This document shows, in pieces, positions 3,101-62,318 of a stretch of 64,000 bases of DNA (positions within the stretch are counted from its first letter, which is position 1; each line of letters starts with the position of its first letter). The notes under the pieces were generated by a model that saw only the letters and a program-made list of their open reading frames with translations, was not told the DNA's origin and made no database searches. Position numbers and translations under genes: made by a program. This stretch comes from Tubulanus polymorphus (lineage: Eukaryota; Nemertea; Palaeonemertea; Tubulaniformes; Tubulanidae): contig NC_134025.1 of the NCBI RefSeq assembly GCF_964204645.1, positions 1,927,001 to 1,991,000 of the forward strand, given 5' to 3'.

Positions 3101-3230
3101 AATAAGAAACAAAGAACATCCTTTGAGGCAGACGATCCTAACAAGCATTGATGATGATTTACACGTTAATGATTTCTGGTCGGTAGGAACTAGATAGCTA
3201 ATGTATCTCATGCTGGGCCTTTCCAGATTC
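118..3230. other. Upstream/intronic region of the NME-like gene, no coding sequence recognised
   Basis: No exon with family similarity is seen on either strand. The stretch holds a short inverted-repeat pair (340..543), a G-rich run at 1529..1546 next to a palindromic GTAGGCCTAC at 1485..1494, and imperfect repeats of a GCTGCTCCTGAGTCAGTG-like phrase between about 2725 and 2920. A noncoding 5' exon of the minus-strand gene should lie here but cannot be placed. Confidence 0.4.
340..543. repeat. Short inverted-repeat (MITE-like) element
   Basis: The 20-mer GTAAAAGTGCAGATCCGCAC at 340..359 recurs as its exact reverse complement at 524..543, and similarity continues inward for five more bases with one mismatch. 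The 204-bp span has no coding capacity. It could be a nonautonomous DNA element or a cruciform-forming repeat. No clear target-site duplication was seen. Confidence 0.55.
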
Positions 3231-3236
3231 AAGTTT

Positions 3237-3856
3237 AGCTGAAACGAGTAAAAGAACGACATTTCTGTAGTCACACAATCCTTTGATTAATTGAAATTGA
3301 CATGTGTATCAACTTAACTCTCTTAAAATTGCAGAGCATCCTTTTTTTCATCGTCCTATGGTGTCTCTGTCATCTTCTTAATCATGGTGATGGGCCTGTT
3401 CAGATTAAGTTTACCTGAAATAGTAAAAAAAGATATTTCTGTAGTCAGACAATTCTTTGATTAATTGTAATTGACATGTGTATCAACTTAACTTTCTTAA
3501 AATTGCCGAGTATCCTTTTTTCCATCGTCCTATGGTGTCTTCGTCATCTGCTTAATCATGGTGATGGGCCTGTTCAGATAAAGTTTACCTGAAATAGTAA
3601 AAAAAGACATTTCTGTAGTCAGACAATTCATTGATTAATTGTAATTGACATGTGTATCAACTTAACTTTCTTAAATATGCCGAGAATCCTTTTTTCATCG
3701 TCCTAAGGTGTCTCTGTCATCTTCTTAATCATGGTGATTGGCCTGTTCAGATTAAGTTTACCTGAAATAGTAAAAAAAGACATTTCTGAAGTCACACAAT
3801 TCTTTGATTAATTGTAATTGACATGTGTATCAACTTAACTTTCTCAAGATTGCCGA
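3237..3856. repeat. Tandem array, period about 174 bp, about 3.6 copies
   Basis: The phrase CTGAAATAG followed by a poly-A stretch and CATTTCTGTAGTC recurs near 3237 (diverged), 3415, 3589 and 3762, giving spacings of about 174 and 173 bp. Each unit also shares the phrases GACATGTGTATCAACTTAAC, TTTTTTCATCGTCCTA and AATCATGGTGATGGGCCTG. A more diverged partial copy of the beginning seems present near 3090. Read on the minus strand, every unit carries a T-rich tract ending in CTATTTCAG, which looks like a splice acceptor. Confidence 0.85.
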
Positions 3857-3959
3857 GTTCAGTATCTTCATGTTGTAGATTCTTTCTTCGTCATCTTTTT
3901 TCTTCTACATCGTCGTCTTCTGGGGAGTCCTGAAATGAAAAAAAAAGAACAGAGATGAA

Positions 3960-6474: not shown

Positions 6475-9400
6475 ATGGCTGATATAAAAGAGTCTGCTTC
6501 AGACGCTGATGCGCTGAATATCGGTGTATCTACCACTGATATAGACGACATTTTAGGCATTGATGAAGTAATTCTATGGTTTTGTGAATATATTTTTTCC
6601 AGTGTATACCAGAAACCCTTGATAACCCACCCTTACTCGTGGAAGACCTTGGCTTGTACAATGTACTAAAAGTAAAAGTAAAACTAAAAAAAGAGCGTCC
6701 CTCCCTTCCCTTTTTTGGCCTTTGCTTTGCCTTTGGTTTGCTTTTAGTTGCTCATAGGCGTCCCCAGGAATTTTCATAGGGGGTTTGATTGAGCATCAAT
6801 CCAGCATCCATGCACAATGTCGAGTGTTTGGTGGGCCTCCCCCAAAAAACCTCTTGAACATTTGAGGCTTTAGAGACGTTTTCCAGGCTCTAAATGGATC
6901 ATTTAGAGTTAAAAGACTAGTCAAATTGGCAAGAAAGATCTTGAACATTGATTACATAGTATCTTGAGAAGTTAGCAAAGAAGGGGGTGGGTCCACTACC
7001 CCCGCACCCCCCTTGGGGACGCCTATGTTGCTAGCCTACCTACCCAGACCCCGGCCTTCCCTTCTCCTTACTTTTTGTCGAAAATGAATATTTTGAGTTG
7101 ACTGTTGAGTATTTCTGTTACAGTCACAATTTGAGACTGCAGTCTCTGTATGTCACTCCTCAGCTGCTCCTCAGCCCCATTCCTTCCGCTCTCTGGAATG
7201 GATGGACCCACCCTCTGCCCTGGTCTGAAATGTGAAACGAAAACCAATGTGGCTTCATCATGCTCCCTTGAACAAAAATTTAGCGTTAGGCCTTAATGAT
7301 GATTTTATTTTCGTTTCGAATTGTTAGTTTCGTATTTTCAATTTAGTTGGAATTAGATGATGAAGAATTCGATCTACCGACTGTTGGAACTCCTCCAACT
7401 TTAGAAAGTATTCTAAATGAGGTCAGTTTATATTCAACAACAATAAATACAGATAATCGGAGGAGTTGGATATTCTGTAAACTCTGATGATATATTTTAT
7501 TTTGTAGCCGGATAATGATTTGCTGAGCGACGATGAACTATCAGCGATTCCAGCTCAAGTATTCCAGGAGGACGACGCGTCTTCGATGTCCAGTCAAGAA
7601 GGAATTCTGTCTGATAAACCGAAGAAGGGGTAAAATACGAACGCTCGAATGAAAACTAAAAGGCAGTTATTTTACCGGATCCGGTCACCGACTTCTGAAC
7701 GCTATTATGCCCCATATCGTCTCTAATTGGCTGATTTACTCCGTGCATGCGCAGAGTTTGAGAAAATAGAGCGGATCGAGCGAGACTCGAACCCGGGACA
7801 GTAAATTTAGCGCAGCATCATACCACTAGACCACCGAGCTCGCTGACAGTCGGTCGAATGTTTTAACTACATATAGCCTCACCTTACCCTAACCCTATCC
7901 CTAGTTGTGAAACGGAACCCTCTGGACCCTCTTGACACTAACCCTATCGAAACCCTAACCCCAATAAAATGATCTTATAGTTACTTAATATATGGATCCT
8001 GCAAAATAGCGTTCAGAAGTCCGCGACCAGATCTGGCTAAATAATCACTTGCCAACTAAAAATTCATTTTAATTTTCGATGATTTTACAGCGAATCTGTC
8101 TTGATTCATTTTTTTAGGAGTAAAAACGCGGCTAAATACGAGAAACATGGATCAATAGTTCGTCACGTTTCACTGAAGGGGATTTCAAGACAACTCATGT
8201 CAGCCGCAGTATGTATAAATATCACAAGCACTACGTCTCATATTCAATAGATATTCACTTGTATCGTCGATTGTGTTATTATATTCTAGGATCGCGTCGA
8301 TGCTGGTATGCCTACTACTATGGTAAGTGATCAGGCTCCGATGCACGGGTCAGGGATGCTACTGCTTCCCTCTAAATTCTGCTTAGATTTTCCATCTCTC
8401 TTTATTCACGGTTTCTCATGAAAACCTGTTTTATTTGTAGGCCGTTTCCACATTGATCGCTATCGGCACTTCGCATGGATTAGTCTTAGTATTTGGTGAG
8501 TATATCCTCTATTATTTGTCTATAGTTTATTAGAATATGAATGATTATTTTACTGTTAATTGCGTCGTTCTCTGATGTTAGATCCTAAGCAGGCGTTAAA
8601 GTGGTGTTTAGGAAGTACTGCCGTAGGTGCTCAGTATGGTTCCGTATCTGCTCTTAGTTTCAATAAGGACTGCACGCGGTTACTGTGTGGATTTGCTCGA
8701 GGACAGGTGATGATGATGATGATGATAATGAGGATGATAGTTTACTGGGCGGTGTTATTATTATGTTTTTTAAACGTTTGTTATCGTTTATTTTAGATAA
8801 CGATGTGGGATATTACGAATGGAAAACTTCTGAGAACAATAACAGACGCTCATCCTCCCGGAACAGCCGTATTACACATCAAAGTGAGTTTTGAATAGCG
8901 TCGATTGATTTCTGATTTCATCCCATTTTTAGATCTGTCAGTGAATTGAATTCATTTTATATTTTTGATTAGTTTACGGATGATTTAACAATAGCTACGT
9001 GTAATGATAGCGGTGGTTCTGTGTTCGAATTAGAGTTCAAGTAAGTGATTTTTCTATACAGTATGCTGTACTAGTCTTCGATTATCAGATGCCCCGCATG
9101 ACGAACTGACCTGGAAATCCCGGAATACTCGGGAATCAGAAAAATCGGGGAAAACTCATGGAATTTGACAAATCTTACCAAAAACCTGGAAAACTCACGG
9201 AATCAGAAAAATCGAGTTAAGATCAGGAAAACCTGGAAAACTCAGGGAATTGGAATAATGCTTCTTTTAAAATATGTGATTCAAAGAAAAATTGAATGAA
9301 TTGTAATATTCTAAACCTAATCTCGGGGAATTTTGTGTTTCAATCACATGGGAAAAACTCAGGGAAAAAAAGTGGCCACCCTGTCACCCATCGTCACTGC

Positions 9401-12400
9401 AACTGCCCCAGAATTCAAGCTTTTCCTCAAAGAAGATTTATTGATGAGATGCAGTCTATCGTATTTATGTTTATGTCTGATTGATTGTAGGCGTTTAATC
9501 GGCGTTCGAACCTGTGAATCTCGGTGTTTATTTTCGGGAAGTCGCGGTGAAGTTTGCGTCATTGAACCTCTACACATGAATTATCAGATTAAAGATCATC
9601 CGATGAAAGATGTTTTGGTTCTCGCGATGGGAACTTTATCGAAGGTTCTCGTCGTTACTTTGAGACCGAAACTGAAAGTCATGTTTATGCATCCATTAAA
9701 GGTAATATTGATTATAAATCGATGAAAGAATCCTGAAATTTTGAAATGATCATTCGGTAAAAACCCTTTCAATTGAATTGGAAGACAACGATCCTATGAA
9801 AATTGAATATTACAGAATTATTTATATTTCAGGGAGACCCTACAACATTGCCGATACTAGCGTGGCAGTTTGTTATTATACAAGTGTCTGATAGCGACCG
9901 GGTTATTGATCCTGTCCTAGCTTTCGGACGCGATCGTACGATCTATTTCTATCAAGTCGTTTGTAAATCCGCTGATGATATTACGTTCTGTTGTTTACAA
10001 AAGATGACTTTGAATTATACTCTATTAGCGATTGAGGTAAATTAACTCAATATTCTGATATCACCTACCGATATATCGTCATCTATTTTACTAATGTTGT
10101 TGTTTATTGATTGTGATTACAGTGGATGAACACAAAAACATTGATTACACTGGACACCTCAGAAAAATTACATATAATCGATGTGCGAACAGATGAGGAA
10201 CTTGCTGTAAGTATTTCTGACTGTTTCTTCAAGATTCACGCACTGTTTTCATGTATGTAATGTTTTGCTATGAAATATCTGTAGGAAATTGATGTCAGTT
10301 ATGTACAACTCGGTTATGCGTCGAGTATATTCAAGTCACTTGCCACAGGTGGAAACGTCAGTAAAGCTCTGGTAAGTGATTTTGATCCTCATGTCATAAG
10401 GTAAGATAAAAAACTGTTTGAATCTACTGAATATAATGCGATATTTTCAGGCATTAGCCGGTGAAAGAGCGTGCTATAATTCAGTTGTATGTAATGAAGG
10501 TCAGTTTTTATTACTGGGTGTGAAATCAGTTCATGTGATGACATTAAGAACGTGGGAAGAGGTTTGTATCTTATAACGGGCTCCTGAGTTCGCGTGCTAT
10601 ATACGAGCACGATTCACTGAGTTGATGCTGTTTTTTTATTCTAACAGAGAATCGATGTACTCGTTAAAGCTGACCGGTATCAGGATGCCTTACAGCTCGC
10701 TTACTCGTTTTACGACGGTAGCGCTAAAGCTGTTATTGGTTTACTCGGAGGACGAACGAAACGAAGAAGTACCGTGTCTGCCAAGGTAACGAACGGATGT
10801 ACCGAGAGAATCCGAGAATAGAAATTTATTTACCCGGTAGTTTGGATTCAGGAAGAAGAATTGGATGTAACAAGATAACGGGGCTACACTTATCATACAT
10901 GAAGTTTAGCTTCGTCATTATAAATGTCATCTATAATTATTGATGTGATGTATGTTTTATCATAAATGCCTTAGATCATTACTCGAGCTTTGAATCGGTC
11001 AATATTTGTGTTTGAAAAATAAGATAAAATCCCGCTATTTACAGATTAAAAGAATTTAAAAACCAGAATTTATCTATTAAATCTAAAATATTTAAAAGAC
11101 ACGACGTTTCGATCTCACCCTAGAGATCATCGTCAGGATTTTATCTTATTATCCGTTCACCACGTTTGAGTGTGGTCATCGTTCTATTTGTGTTTGAAGT
11201 TTAGCTATTTCTAATAATGAATCACGTACATGAATATTGTTTGTATATTGTAGATGATGGACCTGCTGTATAACTATGTAGATTTATCAATGACCACAAA
11301 TTTACCGGAACGAGGAAAACTAGAAGAATTAGAGGAATATTATCAGAATGTTGTTCCAGTTTGCGTTGATTACTGTTTATCACTCGGTAAAATGTACGTA
11401 TCACTAACAACCCCTCACCTTTTTTCAATTTTCCCAAATGGAAATGAACACATATGGTTATGCAACAGTCAACATTTTAGCGGTGACTGGTTGATAAAGG
11501 TGATTTTCAAGGGAAATTGCTGAAGAAAGTTGCCTTTGGCAAATGCAATATGTGAAATGTAATGAATTTCCCAAGTATTTCCCTGATTTGAGGAAAATAT
11601 TTCAAATTCCCAAATATTTCCAAACTGGGAATTATTATTTCAAAATTCCCGAGTTTTTCCCAATTTCCCTGTTCTGTGTGAACCTTGTTTATCAGGCTCA
11701 TTTCATAAACTGGTTAAGTTTAGATTTTTGCAGACAGTTACAAACAGTTCAATGTTCTGACATAACTCTGGATTCTGACTCTACCTACGGTGATCATAAC
11801 TATGAGTTTCATCCTATATTCAACGTTAATTTAGATCTCTATTTTGTTGAAAAGTCAGGGAATTTTTTGTTTCTTGGTTTTCTAGCTGATAAAAAGTGGT
11901 ACAAGGAACCACTAAAAAAAAGGCCCACTCGGGATATCTTATAATTGGATCAGGGAATTTTTGGTCATTGGGCAAATATCAGAGAATTTTGGATTCTCTG
12001 ATGAGTAACAATGTGTATATTGTATTTGATAGGAGTGTATTGTTTGGTCGGATCTATGAACGGTTCAGTATGGATCAACTCGCTAAAGGTGTTTTCCTCG
12101 AATGTTTAGAACCGTTTATTCTAAACGATAAACTGATTTCAATCACTCCGTCGGTGATGAAGGATTTCATCAATCATTACGAAGCTAAAGGAATGTTACA
12201 GAACGTTGAAGCTTGTATCGTTCATCTGGATATTGCTAGTTTAGATATTCATCAGGTAACAAACATCTATCCATCTATTCTATAGAATACTTGATATACC
12301 ATAACTGTGTAAATCACTTCAAATTTTCATAGTTTCTCCTCAAAAACTCCTCAAATTCTCCGATGATGGAAAAGTATGAACAGTGTTAGGACGATAACCA

Positions 12401-15400
12401 CACTCAAACGTGGTGAACGGATAATAAGATAAAAACAAGAATTTATTTATTCAATCTAAAATATATAGAATACACGACGTTTCGATCTCAGAGATAATCG
12501 TCAGGTGATCAGAGATCACGAGAGAGATCGCAGGCGTTACAGATCATCGACACCTGACGATGATCTCTGATCTCTATATATTTTAGATTGAATAAATAAA
12601 TTCTTGTTTTTAAATTCTTTTCATCTGTAGATAGTGGGTTTTTATCTTATGAACAGTGTTGTTGTCTATTAATCAGTTGCTGAGATATGTCTAATGGCTG
12701 ATGTCTAATGGCTGATGTCTAATGGCTGATGTCTAATGGCTGATGTCTAATGTACATGTTTCTTCAGGTTGTTGTATTATGTTGGGGTCATGGATTATAC
12801 GACGCCATCATATACGTGTACAATAAAGGAATGCAGGATTACGTGACGGCGTTAGAAGAATTACTGCATATTCTGTGTAGAGCAGTAGTAACTGGAAAAC
12901 AGCTCACTGGTACGTAGAGAAATAAAAATGTTTTTTTTTTGCCGTACTATAAAAACTGATTTCTTATATTTGTAAATTATTTTCAGATGATCAAATTCGA
13001 CTAGGAAACAAACTATTAGTTTATATCAGGTATCTATTGTCACCATGTTTTACAGCTTTGTCATCTGGTGCGATATTACATAAAAACTGATTTTATTTCA
13101 CGATTGTCTTTTTGTTTACAGTTGTTGTTTGGCCGGAAGAGCGTACCCACTCGGTGATATTCCTGCTGAACTTGTTTCCAATGTAAAAGAAGATGTATTC
13201 CGCTCTATAACAGCTCTTCACACGAAGGAACCTGCGGCAGGTATCGATATTCGTACTTGTATTCGTCGTAGATATCACGTATTAATAGAATTCACTCGAT
13301 ACCGATTCAGTTCATTGTATTTTCAGATGAAGAAATTTATCCATATTTACGAACTTTATTGAGATTCGATACTCGTGAGTTTCTCAATGTACTGGCGTTA
13401 GCATTCGAGGAACCTGAGTTTAATTCCGAAGATGGGTAAATATATAGATCGATTAGAATTATGTTATTTACCTCGTTATAACTACTATCTTCATTTTAGA
13501 ATGAAACTTGCTTAAGTCGTCATAATTGTGATGATCATTACGTTGACTTGTGGAAATGAAAACATAGTGAATCGATTTGGAAATACAAGTTGGGACTTGA
13601 ATATAGTGACGACTTAAGTGATGTGATGAATTAACTGACTGTACATGTACATTGTTATTGAAGGATCCGACAGCGTCAAAGAGTTGTAGATATTCTACTG
13701 CAGGTTATGGTAGAAAGTGTTGGATTTTCGGTAAGTCAATTCTCAAGAGTTGAATGTTGTTTTATACGTGAACCGGTAAGAACTGATTTGATATTCGGAA
13801 TATTTTCAGCCGACTCAAGTTGGAATATTGTTTACATTCCTCGCGCGTCAAATGGCTCGACACGAGAACACAATCCACGTGAACAGAGTCTTGTTTGAAC
13901 AGGTAATAAACTGAATTATATGAAGTTTTTTGGGCCCAGTGTCACGAAAAAGTGTAAGCCTAACACGGTTAAGTTTGAATTGTTGTCCTGAAGTAACCGA
14001 TAGCGATTACACCAAAAATTTGAGTGAAACTGGGCCCAGGTGATATTTTCGACTGCTTTGATGACGTATTTTCTTCGTTTTTGTAGGTGCTTGAATTTCT
14101 GTCTAATCCTGATGACGAATCTCGACATGAAGAAAGACAACAAGCGTTGATGGAATTGTTAAACGTTGGTCAGATTCAGTTTGATGAAGATCGTTTACTA
14201 TTACTCGCGGAAAAAGCTCAATTGTAAGCAAGTAAATCGCTTGGAAATTCGCTTGGACTCATGCATCAGATTTTAATCGTTAAATTATTAAAACGTTGTT
14301 TATTTTTGTAACTATTAGTTATCGTGTTTGTGAACATTTGTACGAGAAAAGAAGACAATTTGATAAAATTCTCGCATGTTATTGGAGCGATGCATCACGG
14401 AAGGTTTGTTTGATAATGAATGAATGGTTTTATCATCAGTTTGATACTGATATCAGGTTCAGTTCGATACTGGTATCAGTTACTAATTTCTGTATTGTTT
14501 CCAGCATCAAGCATTCGCGTACATTGAAAAGATTATAATAAGTCGTAATTTCACCGAAGATGAGAAAAATGACGTAAAGAAAGAAGCATTGAAACATCTG
14601 CCTGTAAGTTAATTACTTGATTCTAATGTTGTTATAGTATTTCACATATTTTGGTTAATACAGTCCAACTTGCTTAAGCCGTTATTGCATCACGGAAGTG
14701 TCACTATTTGTTAGTCCTAATTTGTATATCCAATTAGATGTACTAAATTTAAGTCCTCATTTGGATTAAATTTGTCATCATGCTGAACGTCCCAACTATG
14801 ACAGCTTAAGCAAGTTCCACTGTGTTTCACTCTACAATTAAAACTGGAGTCAAAATCAGTGAACTATGAACTGTATTTTGATTTTTCTTGTATATTTGAT
14901 ATAGGAATTGATTCAAATCGACAGCAAGAAGGCGGCTGAATTAACTATTATCGGATTCGCTAATGCACTCAGCGATATCATTAAGAAACTATCCGACGAT
15001 TCAAAGATGCTTTATGAGTTTCTGAAAGGAGTTTTTGAATATAAGTCAGTCATTGAAAATTTACAGTTATTTGTAATCGTGAATGTGTTATAATTAAAGC
15101 TGTTTTTCTGTTTTATTTGTTTTAGAGAAGCGAATGAAAGCGCTATTTATTCCGATCGTCAGATCATCGTTGAACCAGGGATTCATGAGTTTTATATCGG
15201 TTTAATGTGTCAACACGAACCAAATACTGTTTATAATTACATCATGCGTGCAGATAATTACAGAATAGATGAAACACTGGCTGTAAGTTTAAACTGAACT
15301 ATTGGTTATAATAAACTGTAGTAAACCAGAAGCCAGTTGCGTAGTCATGGCTTAGATTTAAGACCAGTCTATGACCAACTTAGGTCGATAGCGGAGCTAA

Positions 15401-18400
15401 CAACTTAACATCAGTCGTAAAGTTTGAGGTCGCTTTTTAAGACCACTATTTGACTTATTGTTTTAATCACATTTTGACCGAGAACTATTGAACTGGGTCC
15501 TGATCTCATACAATACATATCTATAATTATAGATTTGTCAGAAGTATCAACTGTCTGAACCGACTGCTTTCCTCTTAGAGAAATCTGGTAAAATTCAACC
15601 AGCATTTGACATCATGTTGCAGGTAATTTGATTTAATTTCCTCTGAAGTTCGTATTTATGAATCGTGAAGCTTTATTCTCCTTCTCAATCATCTGGAATA
15701 TTGTAGACTGTACACAGTAAAATACAAGAGCTTACAGATATCTTACAAGTTACGAAACAACAGTTAAACCAGGAACAAAGTAAGTACAGCGTCTATCCTC
15801 GTACCTGTAGACCTGGCTCATACTATAAACTAACAGCAACTAGATCTAAAATGAAAACAAATCTTACTTTTTTCTCAGTTTTCAAAGTTAAGAAATGTAA
15901 GTCATTTCTCAGTATATATATGTAGATTGTTATTTCGCTACTGCTTTTTGCTGCATTCTAGACTCTTGGATCCCGTGATGGTTTTCTGTTTTTATTTCTA
16001 CTCCCGTTTTATGAATTACGTGGATTCATTTTTATCGCTGTTGTTGTGAATACGAGCATGTATTTTCAATTAATCGTATTCATTTGTAGCGTATTTCAAA
16101 GCGTGTAACTTTTGTTTTGAATTATTCGTCGTTGCTACAATATTCAGTATATATTGTGCGTGATATATTTCAGCTATTGCCGGGTGCATGAAAAAGATTG
16201 AAATTGCCCTTTTCAATATCATCCATTTGAGTCAAAGAAGTTCACCTAGACTAGATGAGAGCGGTAGAGAGGTAGGGATTTACATACTCGCTTTCATTTC
16301 ATCTAGCTCCTCTTTGTACTGTATGGATTAGGCTAAACAAAAACGATACCTTGTTTCTCCGCAGCGGCCGGGTCATTTTTGTAAAATATGATAAAATTTA
16401 TAAACAGTTCATTTCTATAGCGGCCGGGTCTGTTACGGTAAAATTGATCACGATTTTTAAAAAAGTAATGTATAGGGTAGATAGGCGGCCGGCCGGGTCA
16501 ACATTTAAGCTCAGCAGAGCGGAGAAACAAGGTATCAATTTTTTTTAGCCTTATATATGTATATATTTCAGGCATTGTGGTTCCCATTGCTGGATTTAAT
16601 GATGACTTCTCAAAGGAAACTGAAGGAAGAAATTAGTAAACAATTCTGGGAAGGTAAATGAAATACTTGCGCATACTGTATAGCTTGATCCATTCTAAAT
16701 TGGAACGGACTAAATATTGAATATTCTAAATAATATAATGTAAACATAGCTTATGCTAAAGAAATGATACCTTGTTTCTCCTAATCAGGTCATTTTGTGA
16801 ACTGCAATAAAATTTGTAGTTTTAGTTCATTTGTATAACTGCTGAGTCTGTTATTGTTAGCTTAATCATCATTTATGAGAAAGATATGTAGGCCTACATG
16901 GTAGATTGGCGGCTGGCCGGGTCAACTTTTAAGCTCGGCAGATATGAGAAACAAAGTAAAAATTTTTAGCCTGACATTATCTTTTTCTTTAACTTGTTAT
17001 AATTGTAGATTTTAAAGGTTTAACGGGGCAGGTTCTCAATAGTATGATGGGATTCATAGCTTTACCTGCGATACTACAAAAAATCATTCAGGATCCGACG
17101 TATAGTTCCGGAAAATTCGGTGATATTCGAGAACTCATTCTCGGAATGCTCGATACTTATAACTATGAAAAAGTGAGTGCTTCGTCGAGCATTTTCTCGT
17201 ATATTCGGAATATTTCACGCAGATTTTCGTTGATATCTACTTAATTTCAGACGTTATTGAATACATGTAATAATCTGTTAAACTACGATCTACATCTTCA
17301 ACTGGCCAGTTTACATCGAGCTGCTAACAGAGGTTTCGTTCCGCGCGGTGAATTCTGCAGTCTTTGCGGTAAAACGTTCGGAATTGCGGTCAGTGCTGCA
17401 ACTATTATTGTATTCAGGTAATGAATCTGATTTATGAGTTTATGGTTTTGAGTGTTTACCTTTCGAGCGACGGAACGTAACTTCATACAGCAAGTTTTTC
17501 TAAGGGATAATGATGAAATTTTTACTAGAGGAAATTGCATTAAATTTTAGAAATTGCTGAGTATTATTTACTATGAAACTCGTTTTGCTAAAGGATCACC
17601 CCTCTTCCTAAATCCTCGGGGGAACTGACTTTGGATTCTGGAAAAAGTATTTACTTATGACTTACAGAAGTGCTTACCGGTATTAGTTTTGTGTCAGGCT
17701 TACTGCTGCGGATTCAACACGGGGATATTTTTCTATTTTCAGATGTGGACATAGTTATCATACTCAATGTCTTCACGGAACTGAATCGCGTCATGTTATA
17801 AATGGAGAAGAACATTGGGCGTGTTATTTATGCAGTAATACGAAGGAGGGCAGAGGTTTATTGGCTGGAACTCGATTACAATGGCACATGAAAAAACCAG
17901 AATCGCCAAAATTACTGAAAACGATGAAAAGGAATCAGGTGATTAGAATGATCTTAGAATTATTAATTTTTGTTACATCATCATTAGATAAAAGTGAAAT
18001 AAAATTGAAGAAAAACCCACAATATGAAGATAAACTAACACAGTATTTGACATTTTGACTCAATTCTGAGCCATTATCAAAACTGAAAAAAATGTTTTGA
18101 AAATTGCTCACAGAATTGACTCGAAATATCAAACGCTCTCTTAGTTTTTCCTACACATTGTGGGTTTGTCTTCAATTGAATTAGACGTTCACTTGTCTAT
18201 GGAAACCAAAAATGTATCTTTATCTAATTCTAGGCTGTAATGAATGAAGAACAGATTTTAGCTATAGAAAACCTACGTAAAACTCAGAAGACTCCATCAC
18301 GGGTAAATATTCTCTCGAAATATTCAAAATCACCGGTACAAAACATGTACAACATGTACTCATAGAATAGTTTGTATTTTCAGCTCGCTGTTCTGGATCA

Positions 18401-26068: not shown

Positions 26069-28151
26069 GTATGCTAATAAGCTGAAGTTTGTTCAACGAG
26101 TCGAGAGAGAGTTCCAAAAATAAAACCATGTCAGCGGCTGTTGTAGAGAATAGTGGCAACCTCTGTCAACCGATAGAAGAAAGATCACAGGACGTGGAAA
26201 GTGAGGAGGAAAGTAGAGAATTTGAAAGTATGAATTCGTCGACTGTTAACGGCGAAGATGATAGAACCGAAGATCTCGAAGAGGAGCAAATCGATCCCGG
26301 ATCGGATAAAGATGAAGATGATAGATTCATCAGATCGAATTCGTTTAATTCTCGTATTAACGGCGAGGCGATCGACGAACATTTATTAGCTAGTTACAAA
26401 CTTTCTCCCGATACGAATAAACTATTGCGAGATATTATTCAGAATCGTGAACGTAAACTACACGCGATGAGGCTGGCAAACGGGCAGTCGCCATTACAGA
26501 TCAACGGTGACCATAATGCCATGATAAACCAACTGCTGCAGGAGCGAGAAATCTACCGAAATGGAGAACTGAATTTAGATATGTCTTTAGTTTCTCAAGG
26601 TATTTCTAATAACTCTGACGACAGCGATAACGAAATGGATAAAAATCAAAACAAAAGATCGTGTTCTTCGCCGTTGATTAGTCCCGGGGGTAGTTCGAGC
26701 GGGCAGCTCAGCCCCAGCGACCCGGAGGCCGTGAAAGTAAAACGCGCTCGCGTTGAGAATATCGTTACTGGTATGAGAATGTCACCGTCGACTCAACCGA
26801 AATCCGAATCGGGAAATCCTCCTTTAGAAAAACGCAGCAATAAACGTAAACAATATCAACCTCAACAACATGACGTCAGATTCAACGAGGATGACGAACC
26901 GAGTGCAAAACGTGGCCGAGTCGAAAAAGACAATTTGAAAGATCAGTTGAAACAAATGCAGCAGCAATTGGTCGAAATGCAACAAAAATATATTCAATTG
27001 TTCGAAAAGACATCCGCAGCCGGTTTGGACACTGTCGATTCTTGTGTCAATGTTGACAGTTTTAATAAAACTAGTCAATGTGTCGGCGAAAATGCGAAGG
27101 AGACAAACAATAATAATACGAAATTAGGCGAAAAGTCGAAATCCCCAAGTTTGCCGTTCATAAATCTCGAAAATAAAGATATGGAACCCAGCCATTTTAT
27201 CGATCAGGTGTGTAAACTAGTCAAAGAACAGGAAGTTAAAATCAGTAAACCATCCGCTAATGCGCTGCCATCAAAAACTAGCATCGAGGACCTCGCGAAA
27301 TCCATAAAATCTGAAATCAGGGACGTAATCAGTAATACTGTTGATTCTGTGGTAAGCAAATTTCTACAAGAAAATAAACTAAAACTGAAGGAAGCGATGA
27401 CACCGGAACCACCTGTAGTTCAAGAGAAACTCAACACGACGCCAACTCCGATACCTCAAATGCCACGAGTCAGCACACCTAATAAAGCTGAACAGAAACC
27501 TCCTAAAACTAAAGTTACCGATAAAACACCTTTCAGAATACCTGACCTGGCCATATCGAATGGTTTCCACGATCCAGCATTCCATCCACTTCCCGCTCAT
27601 CATCCATTCCATCCATTCCCGCTGTTTGGACCGGCTCTTCATCACCACCACGCCATGTTCCACGCACCTAAGAAAGAACCCGAACAGACCGAAGCGTTGC
27701 CGCTGATCGTCAACACTCCTAAGAAGAAGCGCACGAAAGTCACCGATACTCGTTTATCACCGCGAGCAGCGAGAGCGTTATTACATGAAAATCAAATGGA
27801 AGCTGAGAAAATGATGATGCATCCACTGACCCACGATGGATATCCACTTATTCCCGTATCATTACCGACATCAGTTGCCATTCCAAACCCTGGTTTACAA
27901 CATTCTGATATCATGGCAATGCATAATAACCCTGAACATCATTCCGCCTTCCACGATGTGTCCCGTTCGCCTCCTATGGACCACTTTTCGCCTAATGGTC
28001 GACTATCGCCGCCAGATAGCATGCCGATGTCTATACCTGCCATGATGAGAAAAGATCATAGAGCTGACAGTCTGTACGGTGGTGACAGATCGAGAAGTGA
28101 AACTCCCACTTATGAAGCAAGTATGGCACATATCATATCCTTTTCAAAAAT
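26069..28151 (+). CDS. prospero: prospero large exon: regulatory N-terminal part
   Basis: The first 59 bases are 5' untranslated. Blocks shared with PROX1 are [13 protein letters not shown] at about residues 202-214 (basic, likely nuclear localisation), [10 protein letters not shown] at about 237, a Gln/Leu coiled coil [20 protein letters not shown] at 268-287, [13 protein letters not shown] at about 357-369, a helix [20 protein letters not shown] near 391-410 followed by [11 protein letters not shown], and QTEALPLIV followed by a basic PKKKRTK. A Pro/His/Phe-rich stretch spans about 480-514. The N-terminal acidic region and [20 protein letters not shown] block are typical of invertebrate Prospero. 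The exon has two possible donors, 28134 (U12 type) and 28151 (U2 type). Confidence 0.93.
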
Positions 28152-31100
28152 GTAAATCAATATTTCATATGCAAAAATTCCCAATTTTCTGGGAAATAGA
28201 TCCAGTCAGCGACAGTTACCTTCAGTAGCTTCATCCCCAAAAAAAAACCTTTTAAAACCTTGTGTCATTTGCCAATTAGTGCCGATGCTCGAAGCGAGTA
28301 AGCATTTTTCAATGGTATCACTGTATTCAAGAAGACGCTTATTGTAATACCTGGTAAATCAACACTCTTAGATAAACGATACTTCTGATATATTTCATAA
28401 ATGGGTGGCGACCATATCTTCATCCTCAACGTCATTTTTTGCAAAAAAGCATACTCATTCAAATCACGTGACTGCGAAATTCTATATATAGCCCTACAGT
28501 CTTAGTAAGAGAGATTGAAATCAATTTATTGATGTCCAAAGATCACGCTCTTGTTAACAGTTTCTTCTGGCTTATGAAGTTGGACAAAAGGACAACATCT
28601 GTGGTCAGAGACAATAAACCTATTGAAAATAGCTAATAAACTAAAACTATGAAAGATGCGTCTAAGCATCATCTGTAAATGTAAGAGGCAGGGTGTAAAT
28701 CTATTGTCAGAACGATGAGAATGGAACAAAGATGATGCCCTCGCGATGACGTGTGTCGTACATAAAATAATATGACCCGCCGCGAAATAAAGACAAGATG
28801 AGTGTGTTAGGGGCAATTGAATATCGAATTTTGAATGCTGAAGTCTTCGGAACACCTACTATCCTCTGCTTTGTTAAGCATCGGAAAGTGAGCGGAATTT
28901 CTCGTTAACAAAGCTTAGCTCCAACATCGTAGAGAAAGTTATCGACAATAGTATACAAGATACTATTCACTTTCATAATTACAACATACATTGTTCGTCG
29001 GGTCTAGATGTTGATTTGACTCGTGCGCATTTTTTCTTTAAGGATTGGTCATCATTGATCGTTCTTTGTTAGCGTCTAAAGCGTTCAGGTGTGCTATTTT
29101 AAGGGGTGGCGTTTGTTATTTTTTTTCTCGGGCACCGTTCAAACACACGACAATGACAATGGTTTCAACGATCATTTTTATATCACGTGAACTAGATGTT
29201 ATAAATTGGCTCTCATCCCTTTGAAAATTAAATATTTCTGCGAAGCAAGCCGTAAATCTTGAAAACAAATGTAATTCCCTCTTGAGATCTGAGATTCGTT
29301 TACATTTAAGATTTGGTCTCGATGATTCTTAAAAGCTTCCTGAAAATGTCGTTGATGTGTAAGAAACTGGTTCAACTGCTATCGGCGGTTCCATTAGAAA
29401 ACCTACTCTGTAAAACGATACTCATAGTCGTGAACGTGAAATGTCTGAAGGCAATCGATCTCAGTAAATACGTGAAAAAGACTTCAGTTTCTTATTTAGA
29501 AAATAATCATATACCGTATACTGTAAAATTATCGATCGTAGAAGTTCTCGTTACATAATTCATCGAGACGAGAAAAAAAAACCCAGAGAAAAATACCAAA
29601 GTGGAAGTCATTACCTTTAATGAGTGGGTTTGATGCATTATGAATTACTTTAAAAGAGGAAACTAGACAAAAATGATGTTAGTTAAGCACTGAAAGCGTC
29701 GTTGCTCAAGACACTTGAGGTTTCAGTCCACCAAATTCACCACCCTACACATCTATTTTGAGGTTAATTGGAAAAGTGGGCTGCTTCTTTTTAGGAAAAT
29801 TCTCAGAGCTACCTCTCATTAAAACTAGAAAATCAATTTGAATCATCAGATAGAACGGTAACTTGCCATTCATTATTGCACTTAAAGATTATTCGCCACA
29901 TCTCACAAAAATATGGATTAATAATGAAATTCTTTTAATTATGCATGGATACGTTTAGTCATCGATAGACTGTAGGTAGAAATTCAAAAACTGATATAAA
30001 AATTCGAATGTAAAGAGCTCGTATTTCGTGTTTATTGAAACCTTCCAGTTTTCTTCCTTTGTTACACTGACTGTTACTTATTCTATCGGCTTGAAAGGTA
30101 TTGAATTTTGATCGAGCCCTCAGGCTTTTGCGACATTAATCTTGAATTGTGTTTACTATAAAAGAAAACCTTACTTCAAAAAATAGGTATTAGTTACCAT
30201 TTCGGCTTTGTGTTACAAGAGAAGGCGATCGAGATATATTCCAATATCTGAAATTAGCCCGCGGTTCCACCCATCAATATAGTCATCTTTAGGTAATATA
30301 CGAGCCGGAAAATCAATGTAAATGGAAGGCTCTTGAAATCTTTTAAAGAAGTTCTGCGTATACTTCAAATATCAATCACGTATCATCAAGTGTAGGAGAT
30401 CAAATGGAACCTGAAGAAAATTCTAGAAAAGCAGCTTCATCTGAATAGAAATAACATATACACGTATCGTTTTACACGAGCAGATCAGGTTTTACACTTA
30501 GAAAAAAGATACATCATCTATTATTACTGCTTACATTTCGTCGCAAATGTCCATCGTTTTATTCACTATATTGATAGTTTCTAAGTAAGGACATATTTCT
30601 TTTCAGAAATCCTATGACAACCTGTCGCAAATTTCACTTGAAACCAGACATGAAAAAATCTTTATTTCAAAAAATCAACTTCTGTTCTCGTGTCGAACAT
30701 TCGTAGCACATGTCGAATCGTAATTGAGAGTCTGAATTCACTGACTTTTCTGGTAAATTATTTCGATGTAAAGTAACAATATGCTTTCTAATTTGCTGGC
30801 AGAACCGCGTGCGTGCATCATCAATCAATCAACCGCCCTCTAAACTAATAATAGTAAAGGAAAATATGAAAAGCTTGCAGGTACATAGTTGGTTATTGAT
30901 AATTCTGACAGATGTTTTGCTTGAAAATATAACTGCAACAAATCTTTTCAAACTCTATTGAACGCATAAGCTGCTAAATGGTCGGAACAATGCATTTAAT
31001 GAACAAATTTCTTATTATACACACTACTTAGCTATTTTTATGTTCTATGAAATGCGAACATTAGGGAAACCTGTGCACAGGTTTAACTGCATAAATTTAA

Positions 31101-34100
31101 CGAAGATGGATTCATGTCGGACTAATTAGTGTAACCTTCTATTATATATATACAAATGACTTTGAAAATCTGAAAAATGAAATACAATGAACAAGTGCAG
31201 GTCTATGATATACACGCATGGCGTTTTGAATAGAAAATCCTTTTAGTGTAATATGAAATATAACAACAAAAAACTAAAAGCCAAGTCACAAGATACACCA
31301 CAATATACCCACATCTTGTCGTCATAGAATTTTTTTTTTCAAAAATTGGGCCAAATACAATGAAGCTTCTACATTTGATTGGGCAATTTGAATTGATGAT
31401 TACAAGTCAAACAATAGTTATACAATTTGCAATATACTATGATAATCCTCTACAAAAAGGAACTTGTACGTATATACATATATCATGAAATGTATCATTT
31501 ATATTCGATCTTGGAGTTGAAATGGAGTTATGAATTTAACTAGTGGCTGTAGATGAGAACAGGTGTCATTGATTTAACTATTTCTCATCGGACATATCAA
31601 ACAAATAATAAGGAGAGGTTTATCTCGTATCTGCCATATTCAAAATTTCTAAATTCGATAAGAATGACTTATCGAGAACTGAAGTTTTAAGTTATAATCA
31701 TTTGACCACCTGTGGAATTTCTCTTGAAAGCAACATCTGGTCTTTTAGAGCGATGTTTGATGTGTAAATGAGGGGAAGGAAATCAGTTTTAGATATTCTA
31801 AATTCGATTATAGATCAAACACGGAAAGTTCTTGGGAACATTTAGGTTCATCGCGTTTGTATTAAGCACGCTTTACACAAATTTAATAATCATAATGATT
31901 GGTGTCGTGTAGTCGTGTGTCAGCTTGCCCGGGAACCAAATCATTTACTTTGAATATCTTAATCTTCACAGCGGTTAATAAAACCAAATTTGTTATCAAT
32001 ACATCGGCGTCAAAGGAAACCTTTCCGAGTTAATTGTTGATCGCTTTTCTAATAGCTTTTTCCAATCTCTGGAGTCATGTAGTTCTGTGGCTTTGTGCCA
32101 GTCCCGATGCCATTTCCTTGTGTTAAGAAAATAACAAAGTCAAGATATTGAACTTAGCGAAAATTGCTTAGCACGAGACACTGTAATGCATAATTAGTGA
32201 CTTGCAGTCGCCATCAGGAAGTTCTATCCATAAACCAATAACCAATTATTGTTTGCTTACAATTTATTTCATCGTTGCGACAGTATAGCTAAGGAAATTG
32301 ACAGGGAGCCCGACGGACTTTGCATGCACCTTCACACAAAAACAATGTCACAATCGATGGACATTTTAGTCGATGGCAACTAAACATAAAACGCATAAAT
32401 ATCTAATTAAACGCCAAGACGCGACTAAATTGATTAAATGTAAACTCACGTGAAAGCAATGTACATATTTAAACGCTTTAAATCTATCTAAGAATGATCG
32501 AGTATTTTTAGTTTTAACCTTAACCGATCTTACACCAGCACTCTAACGCCGATGCACCTGAGGAAAGCGAAACTGATGTTCTTCTTCGTGCGATATCCGA
32601 GTTCCGCTATTTTGAAGGTCTACTTTCCGGACATCAAATTCAACAAAAACAACACGGCTCAGCTTGTCAAGTGGTTCAGCAACTTCAGGTAAGATCATTT
32701 CTACATTTTATGTTTTTCAAAATCTTAATTATGATGTACATATTGTCAATGGTTTTTAGCTTAGCTTCAAAGCAACTGTGCTCTTATCTTACATCGAACG
32801 TAATCATTAATCGATAGGGTTCCTGCAGAAATATATATACATATATTTTCATTTCGGTTTCAAACGATAGATGTGCCTGACGTGCGTGTGCTTTGTCATA
32901 AATCTCAGACACCTCCCAGGTTCTGCAGCTCTTAGCAGTGTCAAGCTTGCTTTAAGCAAAAAAGGGAATTGCCTAATTGCTTTCGAACGATTAAGGTGAA
33001 GAGTTGTCTAATGCCTTGAGTGGGAAACAAAAGACCGATTCGGTCCCCAAGTGACAGTTTCAATCAACTAAGAGATGTTACTGCGCATATTACTGAACAT
33101 TTTACTTAATGCATGCATCAAAGAAAGCGCAGATAATTGTACGATGGTTAAATGTGTGTTAAGGGCTCGTTTTTTTTACTAGCTTCTCGCGTCTCATTAG
33201 CGTACACCATTCTACAGCTGCTGTCCTTCCTTAGTAAGCTCCTACTTTTACGGAATCAGCCAATCAGACGGCTAGGTGTTGCCACTTGCGACGTCAAGTC
33301 GTGCATTACTGCGACAGAAAGCGACTCTTGTTGATTACTAACAAGTTTCATAAGACTATAAAGAGCGCTTACAGTGACTCAATAATGTATAAGGAAATTT
33401 ATAGAAGCATTATAGGATTTTTAAAACATAAAACACAGACTTCTATTTGTGCAGTTGAGTAAATTTGCCAGGCAATTTTCTAGATGTCATGATTAGTGCT
33501 AGTAAGATATAGAAATAAAAGAAGCCAGGCTATAATTCCACCTGACTGGCGGTAACTATTGGCAAACAAAGGACGTTGAAGCGAAAAGAAATGCGACCGC
33601 CATCCGGTCTTTTGTTTGTTTAGCTGAAATTATAGATTACCAACATTTTCACAGTTCAATAACTAATGCATTAAAAGGAAGCGAGAGATTTAACATTTTG
33701 GAGAATAAAACACAGACCTGGATTGAACAGTTATCACTAGGAAGACAAATGATAAATGCGTCAACTCGTGATTCTAATCTTTAGGTCAAAAAGTATATCA
33801 AAGTAATTTGCTCGCTCGCGTAAACAACAATATCAGCTTTATAAAAATCTGAATACATGGAGCAAATACAGCACTTCCTAAACTTTGTTATTCATTGTTA
33901 GACGCAATTCAACAATATCATGCAAATGATGATCATATTTCATCAGATGTTTTGATAAATTTACATCTGCACAGATGCAGTTCAAGGCGAAAGCTACAAA
34001 ATGTATTTTCCATTGTACTTCATTAATGATAAAGTGGCAAAACTGGTAATGAGTACAAGACATAAAAATGGTTGGCGCACTGCGCCCTTCATCAAACATG

Positions 34101-40100: not shown

Positions 40101-41403
40101 TTAGTTATCGGTGAAAGGATATTTATATCCTTTCATGATAGAAATGAAAAGCTCCACACGCAGCCAGGCTAACACAGAGGTTTATTCTATCTATGAGCCA
40201 CGTGCCCATATTCCTAACTGAATATTGGAAATTAGGTGCAATTACAAGTGCCAGCAACTGGCGAAGAATAAACAATCGAAATTCAAATTATGTTGAAAGA
40301 GTGTAAATTTGAAGATGTAAGTATTTGTTATCTTGGATAGACCGAGTTGATTTTGGATCATTTCAAAGATGTGGAAGTTGGTTCAGCAGTTTTCATTAAA
40401 GTTGCACCTGTTGCGACGATCAAACACTAGAAAAACGCCCTGTTATCAAAAAGAAATCGAAATGAACAAAAAGCATCGAGTCACTCGTAAAATCAATAAT
40501 TTCTTTATTTTTTTGTATTCATTTTCCCCGGTTTGATAGAGTCGGGTAACCACACTTGAAGAGTATAGTGTCTACTTTATACCCATATGTTTAAAACTAA
40601 AGTAAGAAACGGCTATTGTTCAAATGTTGACTATTACAAACAAATCATCCACTTCCCGTATAGGATCCAGTTCCACGTTTTACTATTTTTCTTTTGTTAG
40701 AAAAATCGGAAATTTCTCTCACATCCGTGGAACTGGTGGTGAACTTTTAGATTTTGGCGCGGAGGACACCGGTCACAATCGATGTAATTTCTGTGGCAGC
40801 AGCCGCCATCGCGCGTAGCGTGAGCCATTGATTCAGAGTGTGAAAATAAAAAGTACCGGTGCTTTTCACGAACGAGACTTCCCCTCAGAACGGAAAGCCA
40901 TGAATAAACGCGCTTACAAAAGGATGTCGTCTTTCTCTTCAGTGATAAAAATCATGAACAGGATGCACGAATATCCCGATCATTCATCGGAGAATTTATA
41001 GTCATAATTTTCTCCTGTCGATTATGATCGCAGCAGCTCTCAAGAAGAAAAGTGATTAGCATGTAAAAACGCCAACAGAAAAGACACGACGATAAACGAA
41101 GACAATGAACTGCACTCGATACAAACAATGGCTACAGAATTCACAAAATACTCCCTATCTCTTCCATCTAGACAATGAATACATAAAACATCTCGTCTGT
41201 TTCTATAAAACCATATGGTTAATAAGATATGAAAAAGAACAATCAGAAATGCACGTGGGTGACTCCAAGTATACGGGCTTATTCATCTATCTCTCGCGGT
41301 GATATCCGCAAAAAATGATACTAAAACTTCATTTCAATTTACATTCGAATTCTTTGTTGTCGTCTCTTACATTTTTTATCGCCGGAATCAGACTCGGACA
41401 CGA

Positions 41404-47400: not shown

Positions 47401-50400
47401 GTTTGTGTTTTATTTATAAATGCTCTATCCCCGATCGGAGATTGTTGTTGACTTTGCTTAGTTGAAATTCTCAGTTGATATCATGCGCAATCTCAGCGTC
47501 AGCAATTAACGTATTATTCGCACCTGTCAATAGTTGATGCAGTAATATCCATTAGACGATGGACACGCATCAAATCTACAATTAAATCATTAATATTCAC
47601 AACCAACATTTACTTACTGCCTTGATAAATACTTTTATCATTCTCAGATTTTCTCGTTTCGGAGGAAATGTAAAAGTTAGCCGATTCAGCGAACTCATTA
47701 CGTTCGGTTGAATGCAATTTATTAAACGGTGATCGTAAATTCAATGTTACTTTAATTATTCAAATAAACCATCCACGGATTACCATTGAATCGTATAATT
47801 TTCTACGATAATTACGCAGAACTAGGAACAAAAAATATCCGATCATAAAAAAACTCAATAAGGCCATCAATTTGTGTTATGATCCATCAGCTTAATGATG
47901 AGACTGCTTCTTTGAACGGTTTAATCGTAAATGGATATTGAGTAATACACTTAACCACCGCTGCAAATATTTGCAAATGCTGGAAATATACTTTAGAAAA
48001 TTAATGACTTTTTAACTGGGGTCCTAATATGAATAGATAGTTTTGAAGTAGAAAGAGAATAATGAATAATTTGTTCTTAGCTTTAAACATGTTTTATATT
48101 CACATTTGCTGTGATCGATTCGCCGAATGCAAAAAAATAATGTATTTGTATCTATTGTATTTTTTAGGGAATTTTATTATATACAAATGGAGAAATACGC
48201 TCGTCAAGCGATCGCTGAAGGTGTCAAATCAGCCGAAGATCTGATCGTTACTACCGATTGTGAACTGTATCGTGTTCTAAACCTTCACTACAACAGAAAT
48301 AACCAAATTGAGGTAAGAATCAATTCATTTGCTTCATCTATGGTTGTTTTTAGAAATTCAATACGATTGATCAATCGCATTAGGGTCTATAAGTAACCTA
48401 TCACTTTAACAGTTATATCGCCATGCTTCATTCGGTTAAAATCGATTACTCGTGTTAGACATTTGTCTATATTGTCAAAGCTCTGCCAATAAATCTTGAC
48501 AACTTTTTTCCACGTAATATCCAGTTGATGACCGATTATTTGATGAATATAAATTCATAGTTATAACTCGTGGGCACTTGGCAATTTTCTTATAGATCTA
48601 TTATCCTCGACATCCTGTGATCTATTCGTCGTTCAGATTACAACTGATTTTGTCATTGTTATAAATTCACAGACGTCCAATTTCCCAGCAATCATTCATA
48701 AAAAAAGACCTAAAGAAGACAGCGTTTATTAACGGCATGAATAATAAGCGTTCTTACAGGACTGAGACGACATGACATGCTCGATAAATACAGCTGAGCC
48801 TTAATAAACTCTTTCAAGCTTAAATACGGTTTACACGGATATATTCTACTATTCGGTGTCTTTAGTAGAGTATAATGTATAGTTAAATGATCGGAAATCT
48901 TCAGCACGATTCAAAATAATCCGCAAGGAAATATTATAGATTTCCATCGCTTTCAATAAGCGATTTTGTCGACTAGAAAATGGTGGGAAAGCCTGCCATA
49001 ATTTGCATCTGTTCTCAGCGTCCAGGTGATCGGGCTCGAGTGTCTGACATCAATTAGAATATCGCAACGGGACCGCGACAAGACATCGTATAAAATCTGA
49101 ACCATTGGCAAAGCAAACTAAAACGCGTTATGTGAGATCTCAACAAGTGTTTTTAACGGGGGAAACATTTGTTGCGTCCTTGATATCGAAACTTCGAATT
49201 CAATTCTATAATTACCCGTATATCGTTGCTTTGTTAATAACATATTGTATATTAGTGACCAACACGCGAGAGTTGAAGGAATCTTTGTGTCATGTTGTAG
49301 CTATTTTCAGTACATCATTGGTCATATGCTCGAAAGCTATTATCGCAATTTGGCAGAAAACGTTTTCCTTGTTTGTATTCAGGATAATTACTGTTCTAGT
49401 TTGAATGTTCTTTCCAATCTAGAGATGTAATTATCATTTTCTATTCTTTGACCATCACAATAACCACACACACATATATAGTTACAGCCTACATACACTA
49501 CTTATAACTGATAATGTATCAGTGATTATTCTCTACGACAAAATTGCACACAATCTTTTGCGCAATTAGCTCTGACTACTTAATGTTCTAACCCTCATGT
49601 CCTCTTGTGAACCAATTTACCTCCTAACCCTGTCAAATTTTCTCCAGAAAAGCTAATTTCCTTTAATTGATGACATTTAGCAAATTCTTTCCTCCACGAA
49701 AAACCGTTCTCAAACCATTTCTGGCGCTCAACACAAACAGCCTAATTCTATAATGAGCCACTCAGAAGCTATAAACCTTGTAGTAATTACACATAATAAC
49801 CAAGAAAGGATGCCACCATCAGACTATTAGCCAACACGGCTATAACCATAAAGGAAATAACACATTAACAATTCTTCACATTTTTATATATGAATAGTCG
49901 CGCAATTTGCAGTAATTTCTTGCGCGTTTTTCCCGTAATATTTCAAATGTCATATGATTCCTTTATAAAGTGAACGCTATACTAGATGATTTATCAGTGA
50001 CTCCCACCACCGCTCGCCTGCCATCGCAGATAGTTTCTCAATATTTCATTTCCTTTTATATTACCGCTTGCTTCCTATTCGTATTCTACTGAGACACAAT
50101 TTACTGAGATTAAGAGCCATTACTCTGCGCTGGAAACGCGTTCGGTTTTAGTTTTTGTTTCGATGGAGATTATATCATTAGTCGGAGAGATTTGTCGTAT
50201 CTTCCCAGAATCTAATTACTATCCATGTAAAGAATACACAAGAGAAATAAAAAGGAGTAGACTTTGTTTTTCATTAGATTATTTTATTATCTAAAAGTAA
50301 ACGAACGACGAGATGATGATTTTGATGATTGCAACGTTTTTAAAGTACGAGAGTTACATCGAAGCGATACTAACACGGAAAACATCGTTTTTATTCCGGA

Positions 50401-50716
50401 TTTTCTTGCGATATTGCTATAGAGAAACTAAGTGCGCAGGTGCACTCTCTCTCTTTCACTTTCTACTTAGCTGTTGACATACATATTTTATGAATACTTA
50501 CAGATGTTCTTTCATTGCTGTATTTTGTAGGTTCCCGATTCCTTCCGATCTGTCGTTCAGTCAACGTTACGAGAATTCTTCAGGTCAATCGTCGCCGGTA
50601 AAGACGCCGAACAATCGTGGAAGAAATCCATCTACAAAGTGATCGCCAGGATGGACGACCCGATGCCGGAATTCTTCAAGTCGGCCAACTGGATGGAACA
50701 ATCAGGGGAACAATAG
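26128..50716 (+). CDS. prospero: Prospero/PROX homeodomain transcription factor (complete coding region)
   Basis: Coding exons: 26128 to 28134 or 28151; 32534 or 32512 to 32688; 48168-48312; 50531-50716 (TAG). The AT-AC route (28134/32534) gives 830 aa and the GT-AG route (28151/32512) gives 843 aa; both are fully in frame. The start is ATG 26128 (context AAACC), the first ATG after an in-frame TGA at 26083. The C-terminus holds the atypical Prospero homeodomain fused to the Prospero domain, a DNA-binding unit found only in Prospero/PROX proteins that drives neural and other cell-fate decisions from the nucleus. The homeodomain is closest in wording to protostome Prospero ([20 protein letters not shown]). 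Introns of 4.4, 15.5 and 2.2 kb separate the exons. Confidence 0.97.
28135..32533 (+). other. prospero: prospero twintron: U2-type GT-AG intron nested in a U12-type AT-AC intron
   Basis: The outer donor is ATATCCTTTT at 28135, an exact match to the U12 AT-AC consensus. Near the other end is CCTTAAC at 32518..32524, the U12 branch-site consensus, 9 to 10 nt before AC at 32532..32533, an ideal spacing. The inner U2 donor is AAAAAT/GTAAAT at 28152 and the inner acceptor TATTTTTAG at 32511. Joining 28134 to 32534 gives ...MAHI-TSTLTPM; joining 28151 to 32512 gives ...[24 protein letters not shown]. Both stay in frame. Drosophila prospero is known to use such a U2/U12 twintron at this place to make its short and long isoforms. 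Confidence 0.85.
28152..32511 (+). other. prospero intron 1 body
   Basis: No coding exon or intact transposon was recognised in 4.4 kb. A short hairpin (ATTCCCA...TGGGAAAT) with a purine-rich GGGAAATAGA at 28191..28200 lies about 40 bases after the U2 donor. A 9-bp hairpin pair CTTTGTTAA/TTAACAAAG lies near 28868 and 28906. Open frames such as 29313..29558 have no recognisable domain. Confidence 0.45.
32512..32688 (+). CDS. prospero: prospero homeodomain exon, first half
   Basis: The exon encodes [20 protein letters not shown], then [20 protein letters not shown] and [11 protein letters not shown], the first two helices and most of helix 3 of the divergent Prospero homeodomain. It begins at 32534 when the intron is spliced at AC, or at 32512 when spliced at AG (adding FNLNRSY plus the residues from the end of the previous exon). 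A third acceptor, CACCAG at 32538, is also in frame with the GT donor. It ends within the Arg codon before EFYYIQM, with donor AG/GTAAGA. Confidence 0.95.
32689..38160 (+). other. prospero intron 2, first part
   Basis: AT-rich, without recognisable exons on either strand and without clear repeats apart from short AT runs. Large introns of developmental transcription factors often hold enhancers; none can be shown from one sequence. Confidence 0.35.
38162..38584 (+). mobile_element. 5'-truncated non-LTR retrotransposon, 3' end with (CTTAA)n tail
   Basis: A forward frame from about 38163 reads [20 protein letters not shown], then [40 protein letters not shown], and ends at TAA 38451. The S-x-H-x-L-x-x-E-x-G-R...R-x-C-x-x-C...DE-x-H-F-L-x-x-C-P pattern is the well-known Cys/His region at the end of the ORF2 protein of CR1/L2/Jockey-like elements. 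A short 3' untranslated part with AATAAA-like GTAAATAAACTTAACTTAAC leads into a microsatellite tail. The reverse transcriptase is missing, so the copy is dead on arrival, and lies in the sense direction of prospero. Confidence 0.8.
38525..38584. repeat. (CTTAA)n microsatellite tail
   Basis: About ten copies of the pentamer CTTAA, interrupted once by TTATCA, end the retroelement fragment. Such simple-repeat tails are usual for CR1/L2-like insertions. Confidence 0.9.
38585..48167 (+). other. prospero intron 2, second part
   Basis: No exon was recognised. Small items: an 11-bp inverted pair CCAGTTCCACG (40667) / CGTGGAACTGG (40726), a (GA)n run at 41406..41438 and a short (GT)n near 45266. Open frames at 45409..45717 and 44946..45245 show no known domain and lack codon-like conservation cues. 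Confidence 0.35.
41406..41439. repeat. (GA)n microsatellite
   Basis: Roughly sixteen uninterrupted GA dinucleotides within the long prospero intron. On one strand this could bind GAGA-type factors, but that is speculative. Confidence 0.95.
48168..48312 (+). CDS. prospero: prospero homeodomain end and start of Prospero domain
   Basis: The acceptor TATTTTTTAG is followed by (R)[18 protein letters not shown], the end of the recognition helix and the bridge into the Prospero domain, then [20 protein letters not shown] and [10 protein letters not shown]. The donor is GAG/GTAAGA. The exon is separated from the previous one by a 15.5-kb intron that cuts the homeodomain. Confidence 0.97.
48313..50530 (+). 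other. prospero intron 3
   Basis: A 2.2-kb AT-rich intron with canonical ends (GTAAGA ... TATTTTGTAG). No repeat family or coding sequence was recognised. Confidence 0.6.
50531..50716 (+). CDS. prospero: prospero last coding exon: Prospero domain C-terminus
   Basis: The exon reads [40 protein letters not shown] and [20 protein letters not shown], ending Q-stop. This is the four-helix Prospero domain that packs on the homeodomain. In the family it helps DNA contact and masks an export signal in the homeodomain (known for Drosophila). Confidence 0.97.

Positions 50717-52450: not shown

Positions 52451-62318
<9,868 letters not shown>

Follow-up and report, generated by a model that had tools for sequence, protein, structure and literature searches.

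Introduction

The textbook example of one intron contested by two spliceosomes, with a changed homeodomain protein as the outcome, is prospero. Table 2 of PMC2831892 gives the fly gene as a twintron and human PROX1 as carrying a U12-type intron at the orthologous position, and the prospero U12 intron has been called ancestral (PMC3564746). Among the papers listed by searches of an open-licence library, no title or abstract opening reports a prospero twintron outside insects. Below we compare with these systems a prospero locus in which a sequence-only reading had described a conserved U2/U12 twintron.

Results and Discussion

The prospero gene and its source

The window, by which we mean the whole 64-kb stretch of DNA that was analysed, carries a gene with the following coding exons, of which the last three were placed by their matches to the homeo-prospero domain (HPD).

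26128..28134, + strand: prospero coding exon 5' of the intron, from ATG to a phase 0 end, 669 codons
32534..32688, + strand: exon opening the homeo-prospero domain
48168..48312, + strand: second HPD exon
50531..50716, + strand: third HPD exon, ending with the stop codon TAG

The upstream exon is contained in an open frame at 26086-28155 and its last base, 28134, falls on a codon boundary, while the exon starting at 32534 reads ACC AGC ACT CTA (TSTL...). Translation of the joined exons gave predicted proteins of 830 aa by the U12 route and 843 aa by the inner U2 route considered below. The Pfam model of the HPD, the domain of the prospero/PROX family, matched residues 672-824 of the joined 830-aa protein at 270.9 bits, the PDB matches were fly prospero and human PROX1, and 47 of the 50 aligned residues in the first homeodomain exon were identical to fly prospero. 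These matches bear out the earlier naming of the locus as a probable prospero gene, and its identification as a prospero/Prox orthologue is supported by its sequence. The gene sits at a single locus of the 267.8 Mb searched (77 contigs), with three exon matches in one search of the genome and one 121-base match in another; a second copy or allele was sought in this genome and none was found. Upstream of prospero, VPS8 exons lie at 9321-18058 on the + strand, with Pfam matches to the beta-propeller, the central TPR and the RING zinc finger, and 56806-56953 is a perfect repeat of 74 AT units. The 64-kb window held no RNA family at gathering score and no tRNA.

The 115 homeobox matches of the genome include ten Hox genes that share a strand and form an intact cluster on contig C6 (5318228-5634747); by their signatures we take these to be Post2, Lox2, Lox4, Antp, Lox5, Scr, Dfd, Hox3, pb and lab. 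A gene off the cluster, at C7:16160411, is by its signature presumably Post1-like. This set, with Lox2, Lox4, Lox5 and Post2 clustered and Post1 elsewhere, points to a spiralian, annelid-like animal and not an insect and, with names assigned from signatures, agrees with the earlier description of the source as a non-insect lophotrochozoan. The Hox complement of Capitella numbers 11 genes, of which Post1 lies away from the cluster (PMC2603591). Most minor introns have been lost in two annelids, Helobdella and Dimorphilus (PMC10639083), so that retention of one in an annelid-like genome is worth noting. Mitochondrial COX1 was sought in the assembly and was not found. Two further loci deserve mention in their own right: at C4:4125126-4126944 four matches in a row cover almost the same part of the myosin head (profile about 112-152) and have the look of alternative, mutually exclusive exons in a gene for muscle myosin, and at C3:26132386-26134986 a single open frame of 1824 codons encodes four homeodomains, an arrangement like that of a large zinc-finger homeobox gene.

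The U12-type AT-AC intron

28135..32533, + strand: U12-type AT-AC intron, 4399 nt, phase 0; ends read from the sequence, at the position of the fly and human U12-type intron (PMC2831892, Table 2)
28135..28144, + strand: U12 5' splice site ATATCCTTTT, its TCCTT complementary to AAGGA of U6atac
32518..32524, + strand: U12 branch site CCTTAAC, matched by GTAAGG in the U12 snRNA of this genome
32532..32533, + strand: U12 3' splice site AC, read from the sequence

The intron begins with ATATCCTTTT and finishes with CCTTAACCGATCTTAC, and the branch A (32522/32523) lies 9-10 nt 5' of the terminal AC. Both parts that mark a U12 AT-AC intron, an ATATCCTT donor and, some 10 nt ahead of AC, a branch site resembling CCTTAAC, are in place, as the sequence-only reading had claimed of its exact donor and of its branch site. 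GTAAGG pairs with CCTTAAC, and AAGGA with TCCTT. The genome contains the corresponding minor-spliceosome RNAs, the search having covered U12 and U6atac: the U12 snRNA gene gave one match (111.8 bits) and carries GTAAGG, and U6atac gave three over the cut-off, at 96.5, 93.5 and a weaker 40.5 bits, the two better copies carrying AAGGA. By themselves the intron motifs are not rare, the window holding 5 copies of RTATCCTTT where 1.8 are expected (5 were reached in 1 of 100 shuffles) and 2 of CCTTAAC...YAC where 0.8 are expected, so what counts is their position at the intron ends; the U12 ends go beyond chance because they are placed exactly at the conserved junction. Since the orthologous intron of human PROX1 is published as U12, the U12 half is ancestral and expected here. 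Judged by its sequence, the assignment of this intron as the conserved U12-type AT-AC intron of prospero/PROX1 is supported.

Elsewhere in the window, a U12-donor-like GTATCCTTT at 3510 falls inside a tandem array at 3214-3871 (unit of about 174 bases, 3.7 copies), and more ATATCCTTT motifs occur in the next prospero intron at 36382 and 40114-40133, two of them forming an inverted pair 2 bases apart.

The candidate inner U2-type splice sites

28152..28157, + strand: candidate inner U2 5' splice site, AAT/GTAAAT (GT at 28152-28153), read from the sequence
32510..32511, + strand: candidate inner U2 3' splice site TATTTTTAG, exon resuming with TTT, read from the sequence
32501..32502, + strand: alternative inner AG, in frame, exon start 32503, adding 16 codons; very weak, score -8.6
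32537..32538, + strand: alternative U2 AG (CAG) within the next exon, exon start 32539, net gain of 4 codons; score -3.95

A candidate GTAAAT donor and U2 acceptor do lie inside the U12 intron, at 28152 and 32511, and the claim that both routes keep the frame and differ by 13 codons before the homeodomain holds as well: the inner route keeps 17 + 22 nt, that is 39 nt or 13 codons, stop-free and in frame, reading ISFSKIFNLNRSY. The same donor has two further in-frame acceptors, with exon starts at 32503 and 32539, the latter also mentioned in the sequence-only reading, and the TAA at 28153-28155, overlapping the inner donor, is the first stop met on intron retention. Because the I-S-F start of the peptide is fixed by the U12 donor and its L-N by the branch site, peptide likeness is no independent evidence; the ISF...LN peptide was accordingly rejected as a sign of selection.

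Site strength was judged against 42 donors (40 from homeobox introns of this genome, picked by eye from the 115 matches, and 2 from prospero) and 16 acceptors (14 from 20 long loci and 2 from prospero). The GTAAAT core is usual in this genome, being found in 5/42 sampled donors. The candidate AAT/GTAAAT is without both G-1 and G+5; of the sampled donors 21/42 are without G+5, 3/42 without G-1 and 0/42 without both, in homeobox donors that share an exon context, mostly Q/K codons, where -1 G or A is synonymous and T is impossible. This shared context makes an unfair sample of exon ends, so the exon-side weights came from a generic table, and with those weights the candidate donor scored 1.68 (sample minimum 0.92, median 5.7). 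The candidate acceptor scored -0.75, and all 16 sampled acceptors were higher, at 0.7-8.3. Counting the candidates themselves, 11 of the 225 GTs in the 4.4-kb intron equal or exceed the candidate donor in score, and 23 of its 223 AGs the candidate acceptor; the donor is the best GT in the first 219 nt, with a better one first at 28354, and the acceptor is the best AG in the last 245 nt, with a better one at exon start 32284. A simple purine count over the 100 nt 3' of the U2 donor, from which a divergent or distant enhancer could escape, found no fly-like purine-rich enhancer, the maximum of 13/20 being equalled in 0.87 of intron windows. RNA folding around the donors was unremarkable (z -1.31).

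Chance expectation was estimated by fixing the U12 ends and filling the interior with random intronic sequence of prospero (n = 20000). Some nested GT-AG pair that kept the frame and met no stop, whatever its quality, appeared in 0.40 of these trials, a pair with a summed score at least that of the candidate in 0.029, and a pair in which both sites were each at least as good in 0.006; a version without the exon side gave 0.41 and 0.006. In grafted controls, where real sequence adjoining real introns was put behind U12 ends (672 combinations), 250 held some nested pair and 10 a pair as good as the candidate. Thus an in-frame U2 pair is present at the U12 intron but is weak, and an equally good one is expected by chance in about 1.5-3% of cases, figures that must be read knowing that the pair drew attention through prospero's fame. 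We concluded that the inner pair exceeds chance only moderately, bettering most accidents without being beyond accident.

Interpretation and alternatives

The explanation that we favour, with fair though far from full confidence, combines an ancestral U12 intron with a cryptic or seldom-used inner pair. The ancestral U12-type AT-AC intron of prospero/PROX1 would have been retained in a lophotrochozoan. From the signals, the frame, the gene and the U12 and U6atac snRNA genes found in the genome, we infer that excision of 28135-32533 by the minor spliceosome is most likely the usual route, which would give the 830-aa protein, and that, again most likely, the inner GT...AG sites are cryptic or seldom used rather than a regulated switch. 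We prefer this explanation because a perfect U12 donor and branch site stand where fly and human also have a U12-type intron, and because the U12 and U6atac genes carry the expected pairing motifs; the inner pair is thought cryptic because chance nested pairs are common (0.40 of trials, 250/672 controls) and because its donor is without G-1 and G+5, its acceptor scores -0.75 and no purine-rich stretch was found. By judgement, and not by computation, a cryptic or rarely used pair seems to us more probable than not, and a used U2 route with 32511 possible but less likely.

Several observations count against the favoured explanation. Regulated splice sites are often weak. Chance seldom gave an equal or better pair (0.029 of trials when scores are summed, 0.006 when both sites must be as good, 10/672 controls), GTAAAT occurs in 5/42 donors, the inner sites are the best locally, and in the fly a working twintron occupies the same intron (PMC3564746, PMC8329584). 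The usual GTAAAT core, the local rank of the sites and the fly precedent, with the modest chance probability of 1.5-3% for a nested in-frame pair, speak for a working U2/U12 twintron, in which the minor spliceosome would give the short form and the major spliceosome, using 28152/32511, would insert the 13 residues before the homeodomain. We consider such use possible and would put it forward only tentatively; equally tentative is its corollary that the switch predates insects or was gained in parallel, with the published early-insect dating wrong or incomplete. Weighing against it are a weak donor, without G-1 and G+5, a weak acceptor and the missing purine-rich element directly behind the U2 donor, together with the literature, in which the U2 sites date from early insects (PMC3564746) and human PROX1 is listed with a U12 intron only (PMC2831892). 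Of the conserved twintron named in the earlier title, only the U12 half is documented as common to fly and human; "conserved" goes too far, the U2 half being published as an early insect gain. A prospero-domain pattern scan of genome and viral contig collections gave 53 and 7 matches, with no relative among them.

Splicing from 28152 to another acceptor, likeliest the CAG at 32538 with its net gain of 4 codons, or regulated retention ending at the TAA of 28153-28155, is improbable in our estimation. Both are possible in the sequence, and minor introns, PROX1 among the studied cases, can stay unspliced (PMC6717393), but the exon starts 32539 and 32503 score -3.95 and -8.6. That the intron is U2-type only, or its U12 signals fortuitous, we regard as barely credible: although neither motif is rare in itself (RTATCCTTT 5 against 1.8, CCTTAAC...YAC 2 against 0.8), both stand exactly at the ends of an intron whose fly and human counterparts are U12-type, and besides the inner pairs no GT-AG pair preserves the frame without loss of coding sequence.

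Comparison with known systems

If the twintron were real, the prospero intron would provide a further case outside insects, the switch would be either deeply conserved or evolved more than once, and the animal could serve to ask whether the U12 intron persists because of its role in switching. If instead, as is likelier, the inner pair is unused, the locus would be a clean example of a U12 intron readily offering an in-frame U2 alternative, and such alternatives within U12 introns may be the raw material for twintrons.

The closest counterpart is Drosophila melanogaster prospero, whose U12 AT-AC intron falls where the homeodomain begins and holds an inner GT-AG pair, with both routes in frame (PMC3564746, PMC8329584, PMC6865273). 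The fly insert is 29 residues long against 13 here, the fly U2 route and its enhancer have been shown by experiment whereas the inner pair here is a candidate, and the fly has a purine-rich enhancer 3' of the U2 donor to which nothing in the first 100 nt here is comparable. The human PROX1 intron orthologous to that of the fly is listed as U12-type (PMC2831892, Table 2) and as U12 only, and PROX1 is missing from the table of 18 human twintron genes in PMC3564746. In SRSF10, as in the arrangement proposed for this locus, a U2 intron is nested in an AT-AC U12 intron and the two machines compete; there the choice decides whether an exon with a poly-A site is in or out, whereas here it would decide the addition of 13 residues (PMC8329584).
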